A DNA stretch of 41,849 nucleotides from a virus: the IMG/VR virus record IMGVR_UViG_3300022701_000081, positions 1 through 41,849 of that record; one strand, 5' to 3'. This document shows positions 11,367-24,737 of this stretch, in pieces. Within the stretch, counting starts at the first letter, position 1; each line of letters begins with the position of its first letter. The notes beneath the pieces are model-generated. The model was given only the letters and a program-made list of their open reading frames with translations. It ran no database searches and was not told where the DNA came from. Position numbers and translations under genes: made by a program.

Positions 11367-11520
11367 CTTCATCCTCCTTTACTTCGATATAGTCTTTCTC
11401 ACTCTTAGTCCATCCATGCTCTTCGTTGATGTATCGGTCGCCGTCAGCAAAATAATCTTTGGTGACCTCCAACATTGTCGGGTTGTCTCTCACTTGCTTA
11501 TACCACTTATAATATAACAT
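11347..11520 (-). CDS. Hypothetical acidic protein (57 aa)
   Basis: This 57-residue reading frame begins with MLYYKWYKQVRDNP and ends in an acidic stretch (KEDEDGEEKR). Its start lies 14 bases inside the VRR-NUC gene, and its 3' end carries the ribosome site of the small ribbon-helix-helix gene. Tight overlap with both neighbours supports that it is translated. No family recognised. Confidence 0.55.
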   Translation of the reverse strand: MLYYKWYKQVRDNPTMLEVTKDYFADGDRYINEEHGWTKSEKDYIEVKEDEDGEEKR

Positions 11521-11806
11521 CTTCTAATCCTTCGATTGCTTTTTTTACCTCTTCCACGTTATCGCAGATGAGAGCTATCCCACCCGCCTTAATGACATCA
11601 AGTTGGTGTCTCTTTTGTAGCTTGGTCGCAGTGTTCTTCTTCCCTTCCGCCTTCACTTCGATTGCGATAAAGAAGCCGTGGACACAGCAGATGATATCAG
11701 GTACGCCGTTCATGTTCGAACGCATCGTCTTAACAGTGTAAAAGTTTTTTGATTTGAGGTACGCGAGTATTTCCTTTTGTACCACACCTTCTAATTTCTT
11801 CTTCAT
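11507..11806 (-). CDS. VRR-NUC domain nuclease
   Basis: This 99-residue protein is nearly all one domain. The motif GVPDII (about residue 34) followed by a strand ending AIEVKAEGKK, then the helix KLQKRHQLDVIKAGG and the strand IALICDNVEEV, is the classic VRR-NUC arrangement of the PD-(D/E)xK nuclease superfamily. The Asp of PD and the E-x-K pair are the expected metal and catalytic residues, and an N-terminal Glu-bearing helix (VQKEILAYLKSK) is present. Stand-alone phage VRR-NUC proteins act on branched DNA and are thought to resolve junctions before packaging, a job done by gp3 in T7. The gene lies downstream of the SNF2 helicase, as is common in phage replication modules. Confidence 0.88.
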   Translation of the reverse strand: MKKKLEGVVQKEILAYLKSKNFYTVKTMRSNMNGVPDIICCVHGFFIAIEVKAEGKKNTATKLQKRHQLDVIKAGGIALICDNVEEVKKAIEGLEDVIL

Positions 11807-12560: not shown

Positions 12561-12750
12561 ACTTAAACCCCTCAGGCTTGATAATACGGATGCAGTTGGC
12601 GCTCTTGGTTAAGTATCTCCCTCTTGTCTCTTCAAGGAATACTTTTCTTACCGCAAGGCATCCTGCCTCGTCGTTAAATCTAACGGTCTCTATCTCTCCC
12701 GCTCCGTCCATTGTGGTCAATGTCATTAGTAATAGCCATTCTATAATCAT
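12553..12750 (-). CDS. Small predicted exported protein (65 aa)
   Basis: I choose ATG 12750 because it overlaps the helicase stop as ATGA and has GGAG eight bases upstream; a longer frame from 12846 would run over the helicase. The N-terminus (MIIEWLLLMTLTT) is hydrophobic like a signal peptide or anchor. The rest has two Cys (in EAGCLAV and SANCIRI) that could form a disulfide in the periplasm. Function unknown; similar short exported proteins are common in phage early regions. Confidence 0.6.
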   Translation of the reverse strand: MIIEWLLLMTLTTMDGAGEIETVRFNDEAGCLAVRKVFLEETRGRYLTKSANCIRIIKPEGFKFE

Positions 12751-14093
12751 TTTAAACTCTCCAGTAATTTTGCTTGCGTCATATCCTTTTGGGCTAACGC
12801 TGTCATCAGGGCGTACTCTACGTCGCCGACCGCTATGTGCATACATCTCACGTGCTCCTGCTGTCCTTGACGGTGCAGTCTTTTGTTGAACTGTTGGTAA
12901 AGCTCAAGTGACCATGTGAAGCCATACCACACGATAAGACTTCCACCATCCTGCAAGTTGAGTCCGTGCCCCGCAGATGCAGGGTGAGCCAAGAGCATTT
13001 TAATCTCGCCTCTGTTCCACGCCTCAACCGCCTTACCTTCCTTGTCCATCACCACTGCATCAGGGAAACGCTTCGTTAGAGCTTCTAACTCATGTTTGTA
13101 ATTATACGCCACCAACATATTATCCGTTGGGTTTTCGGTAATTATCTCTTCCAGCGTCTCCAGCTTTAGGTCGTGGATGTGGTGCGTCTTATTATTCTCA
13201 TCATAGACATTACCCGAACAGAATTGCAGCAGCTTGTTCGTAAGTGTCGCTGCACTCATCGCGGTAATATCTTCCTCTTTACTCATCGCAAGGGTCATAT
13301 CTTTCTTAAGGGTGTCATACTCCTTCTTGAGCTTGCCCTCCAACTTGTTGCCCAGTACAGTAGGGATAAAGTCAGGTAGCTCCAAGTAATCCTCAGCGCT
13401 CATTGACAATACCAAGTCACCTATCTTCTCTTGTATTCTCTTCATTGAGCCGTCAAGTATCTCGTAGTTGTGCCCGAAGTAGTCCTTCTGAAAATACCTC
13501 TCACGGAACAATGTAATTGTACGTCCAAGCCTATACCCACCATCAAGCAGATAGAATTGTGACCATAAATCGTGATACCCGTTAGGCGCAGGCGTACCCG
13601 TAAGCAGTACGAAATACTTTGCCTTGTGTGCTACCTTCTTCAACGCTCTAAACCTTTGGGCTTGATGCGATTTAAAGGATGAGCTTTCATCTATCACTAT
13701 CATGTCGAAAGGGAAGTCCTTGACACTGAAGTTCTCCACCAGTGATTTGACATTCTCTCTGTTAATGAGATAGACGTCAGCCTTACGCTGTAATCCCTTG
13801 AGCATCTTCTTCTTACCGCCTGCAAGGTTGACGAAGGTGAGGTCTTTTGTGTGCTCCCACTTCTTCGCCTCCTGCATCCATACCGAGTTACATACACGCA
13901 ACGGCGCGATGATGAGTACCTTGCCGACTTCGAATGAGTCATAGAGCAAGTCCTCTATCGCGGTCAGTGTTGTAATTGTTTTCCCTAAACCAAGTCAGCC
14001 CATATCTAAGAAAAGAGCGCATTTACTCTTATCTAAGATATGGTTAACTCCTTTGTGTTGGTATTCGTGTAAATGGTTTTTGTTTAGTATCAC
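12747..14093 (-). CDS. SNF2-family helicase with in-frame UGA inside the ATP-binding motif
   Basis: Start is GTG 14093, overlapping the upstream stop as GTGA and preceded by GGAGGTG. The first 32 codons give a Q-motif (LHEYQHKGV) and end with ALFLDMG. Then come UGA, CUU and GGU, after which LGKTITTLTAIEDLLYD continues. Leaving out UGA-CUU-GGU restores DMGLGKT, the standard motif I. Downstream all other SF2 motifs are intact: APLRV, VIDESSSFK (motif II, about codon 135), LTGTPAPNG (III), then SAGHGLNLQ and the QFNKRLHRQGQ arginine motif (VI). The C-terminal part could also start at TTG 13949 but would lack ATP binding. No other lesion is visible in 449 codons. SNF2-type phage helicases remodel DNA during replication or recombination. 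Whether the UGA is bypassed, read through, or a real null mutation is open. Confidence 0.85.
13989..14000 (-). promoter_or_regulatory. Candidate recoding site: GGC-UGA-CUU-GGU
   Basis: On the minus strand the glycine codon GGC (13998-14000) is followed at once by UGA (13995-13997), CUU, and a second glycine codon GGU (13989-13991), then UUA GGG AAA ACA. The same tRNA-Gly can read GGC and GGU. A nine-base hop between them would yield DMGLGKT. UGA followed by C is also a leaky stop context. No long hairpin is evident around it. Confidence 0.4.
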
Positions 14094-14449
14094 TCTACAC
14101 CTCCGTGATAATCTATTGTCTCTTGTATCGACATAATCTTTGGATGGAACTCTCCGCTCAACTGCATATATAAATGTCTCCAAGCAGGGTTGTCAAGCTG
14201 TTTGCCCGACATGAACATACTCTCAACATAACCTCTGCATACTTTGAAGGTATCTTTATCCTCAGCGTACTGCTCAACGCCAGTGTTCTCACTGCCCGTT
14301 ACAGCTTTTAAGTGGAGGTGGCAGGGGAAAATGACACCCTTCTCTATGATGTCCAGTAACCCCATACTCTCCTTGAGTACACCCACCTGCGAGTCATTCA
14401 AAAACCCGCACTCATTACATACCTCTTTACATGGTGCTATCTTTTGCAT
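14090..14449 (-). CDS. Cys-rich putative metal-binding protein (119 aa)
   Basis: The N-terminus holds CKEVCNECGF, followed by FPCHLHLKA near residue 42 and VCRGYVESM near residue 70. The spacing of Cys clusters (CxxxCxxC, then CH, then CRG) parallels that of the next gene upstream and of DUF6283-type phage proteins, which have CxxCPF, CHK and CAG signatures. A metal site, zinc or iron-sulfur, is likely; the role is unknown. The start is preceded by AGGAG. Its stop overlaps the helicase start and its tail carries the helicase ribosome site, so the two are co-expressed. Confidence 0.6.
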   Translation of the reverse strand: MQKIAPCKEVCNECGFLNDSQVGVLKESMGLLDIIEKGVIFPCHLHLKAVTGSENTGVEQYAEDKDTFKVCRGYVESMFMSGKQLDNPAWRHLYMQLSGEFHPKIMSIQETIDYHGGVE

Positions 14450-23928: not shown

Positions 23929-23987
23929 TTATTTGAGCTTATCAGGCTCTATGAGACGCACCACTATGCGTCCTAAGAGTTGACAAA
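23929..23987 (-). promoter_or_regulatory. Duplicated leader element, copy 1
   Basis: This 59-base element is 55/59 identical to 24754-24812. On the minus strand it has a hairpin GACGCA-UAGUGG-UGCGUC, then GAGC-CUGAUAA-GCUC, then AAAUAAA, and lies just before the gene starting at 23910. It begins inside the last codons (F-V-N-S-stop) of the T5orf172-like gene. Confidence 0.8.
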
Positions 23988-24737
23988 GTTGTGTAATTCA
24001 ATGACCGCTTCCTTATATTTCTCTTCAGCTTTTTTCAAGTCTACCTTATGGTTATCCAATGCTGTTGACTTGAAAGGGATTAGTAGGTATGTAACTACAA
24101 TAAGTAGGAAATTTCCTATAGTAAGCATAAAGCCCAAGCCCATAGATAAACAGCTCAATACTATAACAATAAATTCTATAGATTGGTTATAAATATTAAA
24201 ATTTTTAAGTAAGAGAGCAACGAGCATTAAAATAATACCTACTAAAAGGTATTCGACATTTTCTGCTATATCTTTCTTTCTTGAATTAATAATAAATTCT
24301 CTATCCTTTATATCTTTCTTGATACTTCTAACTGTTTCACCTCTCTCACCGCGTATTTTTTCAAATTTCTTTATTTGTTCTTCTCTCTTCTCAACTTCTA
24401 ATATACGTTGGAACTCTTTGTTACGTGGTGTATAATGCTCACCCTTTGCCTTAGAAAATAAAATATTTTGTATCTCTATGATGTCGCGGTCATTTAGGTT
24501 AAACCATTCGTTAACTCTTCCACTCGGATTAGATAACCTCTTGTCTTTGAATTTTCCGTGCAACATATACTCCAATGCTTCACAGTCATCTACTTCAGCG
24601 AACGCCACTAACTTTGTCAACCCGTCACTTCCCGTCTCAGCGTTTAGTTGCCTAACTCTTGCTGTATGTGTCAATGTGGTCAAGCCTATTTTGCTATAAC
24701 CTCCGCTGTTTTTTAAAAGATATACTGTACCTCTCAT
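23973..24737 (-). CDS. T5orf172/Mug113-type (GIY-YIG-like) protein with membrane anchor (254 aa)
   Basis: Residues 1-90 show the T5orf172/Mug113 pattern: GTVYLLKNSGGYSKIGLT, then TARVRQLNAETG, VDDCEALEYMLHGKF with the E-x-x-x-H-x-x-F helix, then NEWFNL. This domain is related to GIY-YIG nucleases. Residues about 115-160 form a charged coiled coil, and about 161-223 hold two or three hydrophobic membrane segments (NVEYLLVGIILMLVALLL, IEFIVIVLSCLSMGLGFML, NFLLIVVTYLLIPF). The chain ends with a charged helix. A DNA-cutting domain tethered to the inner membrane would meet incoming or extruded DNA there, for example in superinfection exclusion; this is inference. TTAAGG precedes ATG 24737. Confidence 0.8.
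   Translation of the reverse strand: MRGTVYLLKNSGGYSKIGLTTLTHTARVRQLNAETGSDGLTKLVAFAEVDDCEALEYMLHGKFKDKRLSNPSGRVNEWFNLNDRDIIEIQNILFSKAKGEHYTPRNKEFQRILEVEKREEQIKKFEKIRGERGETVRSIKKDIKDREFIINSRKKDIAENVEYLLVGIILMLVALLLKNFNIYNQSIEFIVIVLSCLSMGLGFMLTIGNFLLIVVTYLLIPFKSTALDNHKVDLKKAEEKYKEAVIELHNFVNS

Follow-up and report, generated by a model that had tools for sequence, protein, structure and literature searches.

The interrupted SNF2 helicase gene

The stretch of DNA analyzed here (hereafter the window) is a 41.8-kb virus record, which carries on its minus strand an SNF2-family helicase gene interrupted within its P-loop. The GTG start of this gene (14093-14091) overlaps the stop of the upstream ORF (GTGA). 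The features of the locus, including the parts proposed under the bypass reading developed below, are:

14090..14449, minus strand: upstream ORF, 119 aa, not an HNH gene (no Pfam match; the leader encodes its C-terminus, GGVE)
14098..14104, minus strand: Shine-Dalgarno leader GGAGGTG, a shortened version of AAGGAGGTGAT, the typical leader of interrupted genes (from the sequence and leader comparison)
12747..14093, minus strand: SNF2-family helicase gene taken as one discontinuous unit (GTG start at 14093, stop ending at 12747; from alignment with the intact genes L002, L003 and L056)
13995..14093, minus strand: 5' ORF of 32 codons to ...ALFLDMG, then TGA (homologous to the N-termini of intact genes)
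13998..14000, minus strand: proposed take-off codon GGC (Gly) (GGT or GGC at take-off in 36/36 interrupted genes of the after-first-Gly type)
13992..13997, minus strand: proposed skipped gap TGA CTT (absent from L002, L003 and L056)
13989..13991, minus strand: proposed landing codon GGT (Gly) (GGN at landing in 32/36 interrupted genes)
13977..13988, minus strand: resumed reading TTA GGG AAA ACA (L G K T), the rest of helicase motif I (window sequence and alignment with intact genes)
12750..13985, minus strand: 3' ORF encoding 412 aa with SNF2-rel_dom and Helicase_C; motifs II (IDESS) and VI (QFNKRLHRQGQ) are preserved (domain match and motif check)

An initial sequence-only reading had placed an in-frame TGA inside the SNF2 P-loop, and minus-strand positions 14006-13977 indeed read GAT ATG GGC / TGA CTT GGT / TTA GGG AAA ACA. 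The stop (13997-13995) lies directly 3' of GGC (14000-13998) and is followed by CTT (13994-13992); the reading frame of the window thus lacks an uninterrupted Walker A (GxGKT), the TGA coming right after DMG. Beyond TTA (13988-13986) and GGG AAA ACA (13985-13977), no further stop occurs in frame until 12747. The same reading had described the rest of the gene as intact, which we can confirm: the 5' ORF already encodes conserved helicase sequence, the 412 aa after the interruption match SNF2-rel_dom (3e-20) and Helicase_C and keep motifs II and VI, and the GGAGGTG leader is in place at 14104-14098.

In L002 and L056, the nearest relatives without an interruption, this site reads GAT ATG GGT TTA GGT, and L003, also uninterrupted, has GAT TTA GGT TTA GGA (DLGLGKT). 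Since L002 and L056 lack the nine bases, the window holds a 9-nt insert. Its two flanking Gly codons (GGC and GGT) are present and synonymous, as first noted from the sequence. The insert can be written as GGG[CTGACTTGG]TTT, however, so that a 2-base repeat yields both codons and the pair is weak evidence when taken alone; it gains meaning only across the interrupted family.

The window has no HNH gene adjoining the SNF2 gene, no tRNA or suppressor tRNA was found in it, and no group I intron or other catalogued RNA was matched in Rfam for the window, L002, L003, L004 or L056. Other loci of the window include a small nuclease with an Hjc match after the SNF2 gene (11507-11806; relatives have VRR_NUC-like genes on either side of SNF2), a protein with a T5orf172/MUG113 (GIY-YIG-like) domain and a hydrophobic C-terminal part (23973-24737), and three ORFs at both contig ends (3-383, 40921-41349 and 41340-41720) ending in a similar ..AIGRWK module, for which tail-fibre tip repeats and a circularly permuted end are alternatives.

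Recurrent interruption of one motif in phage helicases

Comparison with homologous phage SNF2 genes, one of the checks proposed by the sequence-only reading, revealed what that reading of the window, correct in its own observation, had missed, namely the recurrence of the interruption in relatives and its homing-endonuclease context. Beside the insert-free L002, L003 and L056, ~40 further phage and prophage SNF2 genes are interrupted within the P-loop by inserts of 2-9 nt. In nearly all of them a stop comes straight after a conserved P-loop codon, and skipping the insert would usually reach a synonymous landing codon and so restore exactly DMGLGKT. With this many related genes bearing the same kind of interruption, the window insert is more than chance. 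Named phages with a P-loop interruption are NatCom_38182, NatCom_29429/23091, Pd_22F and Fusobacterium phage phiPaco (in the latter after the second Gly of the motif), and most of their genes are annotated in GenBank as a short ORF plus a helicase ORF. A search of genome contigs added isolate genomes of Veillonella atypica (L466) and Acetoanaerobium pronyense (L464), and the interruption also recurs in independent assemblies (L488/L489 and L509/L510). L004, one of the window's closest relatives, has another insert at this motif (GGA CTT/TGAC/CTT GGC); searching with its HNH gene retrieved L136 and L137/L061, which share both its arrangement and its insert. The heptamer CTT TGA C does not vary among L004, L061 and L136, three divergent phages.

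A pattern scan for TGA after DMG yielded more SNF2 genes, and a control scan with TAA or TAG (TAR) yielded as many again, which rules out a UGA-specific effect. UGA reassignment is likewise rejected, as the gene upstream in the window ends in TGA and the relatives use all three stops. Pattern matches with 10-nt spacing (L249, L251, L254, L282, L300 and L315) were discarded as uninterrupted W-x-[DE]-x-GLGKT genes in another frame, and matches to the CTTTGA pattern in L217-L219, L221 and L222 as not SNF2.

Because pattern searches are biased, a further set was assembled from relatives of L412, retrieved through the protein encoded downstream of its insert, and 79 were examined. The P-loop was disrupted in 21 of these, and in 20 of the 21 the stop was the codon immediately after a conserved motif codon, against an expectation of 3/64 (~5%) for random inserts. 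The sole exception is L549, with a 5-nt insert near 2490 (GGT/CCAGC/AAG) and no adjacent stop. Among the window's own relatives, the disrupted L004, L061 and L125 likewise have a stop as the next codon. The position of the insert varies, falling after D, the first G, L or the second G of LDMGLGKT, and the stop adjoins each time.

A further comparison is offered by the 36 genes interrupted after the first Gly, in which TGA, TAA and TAG each occur 12 times and inserts of 4-9 nt cover all three frames. The take-off codon is GGY (GGT or GGC) in all 36, and the same Gly in the uninterrupted genes of the L412 set is GGA 24 times, GGT 11, GGC 10 and GGG 5. Immediately ahead of the resumed Leu stands GGN in 32/36 and AGC in 4/36 of these genes. 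Landing codons that do not match are AGC in L319, L386 and L543/L544, GAC in L566/L567, AGA in L571 and GTC in L525; the L525 interruption (around 760-800) follows Asp (CTT GAC/TGAGTGTC/ATG GGA), has no matched landing codon and adjoins a NUMOD4-HNH gene. Within one clade of helicases that are 83-92% identical, inserts measure 6, 7 and 8 nt.

Selection, ancestry and endonuclease context

The 3' ORFs of the interrupted genes are complete in all but L004, which has a second lesion (a 53-nt deletion), and motifs II and VI are conserved in nearly all. Evolutionarily, dN/dS among interrupted genes is low (0.035-0.07, about 0.04) and similar to that of uninterrupted pairs, the best pair being L503/L509 (no HNH gene, dS 1.3), with the qualification that gene conversion near the P-loop, as in L543/L544, whose 5' parts are identical through local conversion, weakens the dN/dS argument.

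In a quick tree with many weakly supported forks, interrupted and uninterrupted genes are interleaved, which rules out common ancestry of all inserts as far as such a method goes, and suggests that inserts come and go, so that many could be young. Compared with L491, L490 seems to have lost the 7-nt insert precisely, with the leader kept and GGG repeats flanking the site. At the RNA level, no consistent signal of a conserved stimulatory hairpin around the take-off was found across the interrupted genes: some members fold with the take-off in a loop, and the mean z (~ -0.5) is within synonymous resampling.

Two features of the surroundings set interrupted genes apart. One is a strong, long Shine-Dalgarno leader and the other a neighboring HNH gene. 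A leader match of at least 8 nt to AAGGAGGTGATC is present in 19/19 interrupted vs. 11/50 uninterrupted genes (p = 1e-9; the window match is 7 nt only), and an HNH gene lies directly upstream of 14/41 interrupted vs. 10/162 uninterrupted genes (p = 1e-5). The adjoining HNH genes fall into at least three HMM groups, all HNH_3 and some with NUMOD4. Ten uninterrupted SNF2 genes thus also have an HNH neighbor; beside the uninterrupted helicases of L513, L517 and L485 it is a NUMOD4-HNH gene, and the N-terminus has ..VGIWQDMGLGKT in place of ..LFLDMGLGKT, perhaps another way of escaping the nuclease.

Several of these loci bear marks of exchange. In L484/L485 the flanks are 96-100% identical, the HNH gene and the helicase 5' coding region are unrelated, and the break lies at the P-loop; HNH gene and gene start appear here to have been replaced as a block ending at the P-loop. 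L543 has an HNH gene and L544 has none, and their inserts are identical. The HNH gene of L004 adjoins the helicase on its upstream side and is itself preceded by an additional, truncated copy of the helicase start. In both L004 (3400-4150) and L137 (2926-3626) a copy of the SNF2 5' end stands on either side of the HNH gene; the two copies in L137 share an identical stretch of ~39 nt (TATCAAGAAAAAGCTGTTAATCATATCCTAACTACTCAA), which suggests a recent conversion.

A proposed bypass and its alternatives

The reading that we favor, with a probability of roughly 0.6, is that the window insert is a very short translational bypass element. Once the ribosome is at GGC and UGA occupies the A site, the peptidyl-tRNA(Gly) would detach, slide across TGACTT and re-pair with GGT, and decoding would restart at TTA to give an unbroken LDMGLGKT. 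A bypass had already been suggested from the sequence alone, and it fits the comparative data better than readthrough, frameshifting, a split gene or decay, the hop itself and its efficiency being what we infer. Bypass is favored by the varied length and frame of the inserts, the use of all three stops, the stop adjoining the take-off, the usually synonymous landing, the purifying selection downstream and the HNH association. As insert length and frame differ among relatives that are 83-92% identical, no single frameshift or readthrough fits, whereas a hop does: moving from one Gly to the next would always give DMGLGKT, whatever the frame. Against a hop count the unmatched landing codons of a minority, the lack of a consistent hairpin signal, the inefficiency of simple hops in reporters, the second lesion in L004, the interleaved tree with its possibly young inserts, the ten uninterrupted genes with an HNH neighbor and, for the window, the missing HNH neighbor and the 7-nt leader match.

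As DNA, the insert most likely sits at the recognition or cleavage site of free-standing HNH homing endonucleases targeting the conserved P-loop codons, where it would protect the helicase gene from cleavage. HNH gene, leader and helicase 5' end would form one mobile cassette in several relatives, and in the window lineage the HNH gene, now absent, may have been lost or may never have adjoined. A broader reading, at odds that we would put slightly above even, is that 2-6 nt bypass elements are widespread and have repeatedly evolved in phage SNF2 P-loops, tied to HNH homing endonucleases that they work with or that left them behind, and keeping endonuclease resistance and helicase function together.

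Among the alternatives, the one with most in its favor, unlikely as we consider it, is a null allele. The insert would then be a repair scar, or a change that protects the gene at an endonuclease site, and would inactivate a dispensable helicase without any recoding. The P-loop as a breakpoint hotspot, the scattered distribution of interrupted genes on the tree, the second lesion in L004 and the apparently clean revertant L490 beside the interrupted L491 are all consistent with this, and some inserts may indeed be young nulls. Yet loss of function leaves unexplained why the stop adjoins the last good codon in nearly every case and why a synonymous Gly follows, and it sits poorly with intact 3' ORFs, a dN/dS near 0.04 and motifs II and VI conserved in nearly all genes.

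Ordinary recoding, i.e., readthrough of UGA-C in the window (giving DMG-x-LG-LGKT) together with +1 or -1 shifts that differ from relative to relative, is the other serious rival, though in our view rather improbable. Readthrough would suit the window, where the 9-nt insert keeps the frame in the context UGA C (L318 and L340 have the same layout), but the relatives use UAA or UAG and out-of-frame inserts. A frameshift is suggested by CTT TGA C, the RF2 (prfB) shift site, in L004, L061 and L136; this heptamer is confined to those three phages, and the window and other interrupted genes are without it. In the window, the sequence is GGC UGA C, a +1 shift runs straight into TAG, and the helicase frame is never entered by a -1 shift. 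Such recoding would need three mechanisms within one clade, including UAA readthrough, it would put 1-3 extra residues inside the P-loop, and it would leave the GKT motif destroyed in L566 and L571 and broken in phiPaco and NatCom_29429. The equal split of stop types also speaks against it.

An assembly or sequencing artefact seems very improbable: the window is a single metagenomic contig and the exact 24-mer of its insert site has no match in other IMG/VR contigs, but the same kind of insert occurs in isolate genomes, GenBank phages and independent assemblies. Two separate polypeptides are barely credible, despite a 400-aa ORF opening at TTG 13949 and the annotation of some interrupted genes in GenBank as a ~30-aa ORF plus a helicase ORF, because the Walker-A Lys and Thr codons (13982-13977) come after the stop but before any in-frame ATG, GTG or TTG, so that neither product would hold the P-loop.

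To our knowledge, natural bypass is known only from a few much longer cases, and phage T4 gene 60 is the one well-proven example in bacteria and their phages. The proposed SNF2 bypass shares with T4 gene 60 and mobA the matched Gly codons, the stop directly 3' of the take-off, an insert in an essential gene and an adjoining HNH homing gene (the last absent from the window), and conserved coding sequence again follows the gap, as seen in the intact 412-aa ORF of the window and the low dN/dS of interrupted relatives. In T4, mobA is an HNH homing endonuclease insertion beside gene 60 (PMC2988022), and the gene 60 insert is thought to protect against this nuclease (PMC5009743). The SNF2 genes differ in a gap of 2-6 nt instead of 50 nt, a GGY rather than GGA take-off, landing codons that do not always match, a helicase as the target, many independent inserts, no consistent sign of a take-off stem-loop and no known nascent-peptide signal; the hop here is also deduced from sequence.

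Closer in size are the stop-hops of synthetic constructs, in which matched codons surround a stop and 9 nt yield one amino acid; phage inserts such as GGT TAG GGC and GGC TGA GGC have exactly this layout. The initial remark that so short a gap was undescribed for bypassing therefore stands for nature, as a 2016 review knew of no natural in-frame occurrences, but not for synthetic stop-hops, which have been made at this size (PMC5009743). The byp elements of Magnusiomyces capitatus mitochondria are similar in that many short blocks are skipped and matched landing is not always required (PMC5009743); they are mitochondrial, whereas the phage inserts affect one motif of one gene family and place a stop in the A site. 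In the literature that we searched, of incomplete coverage and including PMC11855218, no description of bypass in SNF2 genes was found.

In practice, gene callers report each interrupted helicase as an ORF of ~30 residues and a separate, headless helicase. If the bypass reading is true, dozens of minimal, convergent stop-hops would turn a curiosity into a testable class, in which natural variation in gap length, stop and landing codon would inform what a ribosome needs to hop. The pattern further suggests an arms-race logic, in which a nuclease targets codons that must stay as they are, and the gene responds with an insert that the ribosome can skip.
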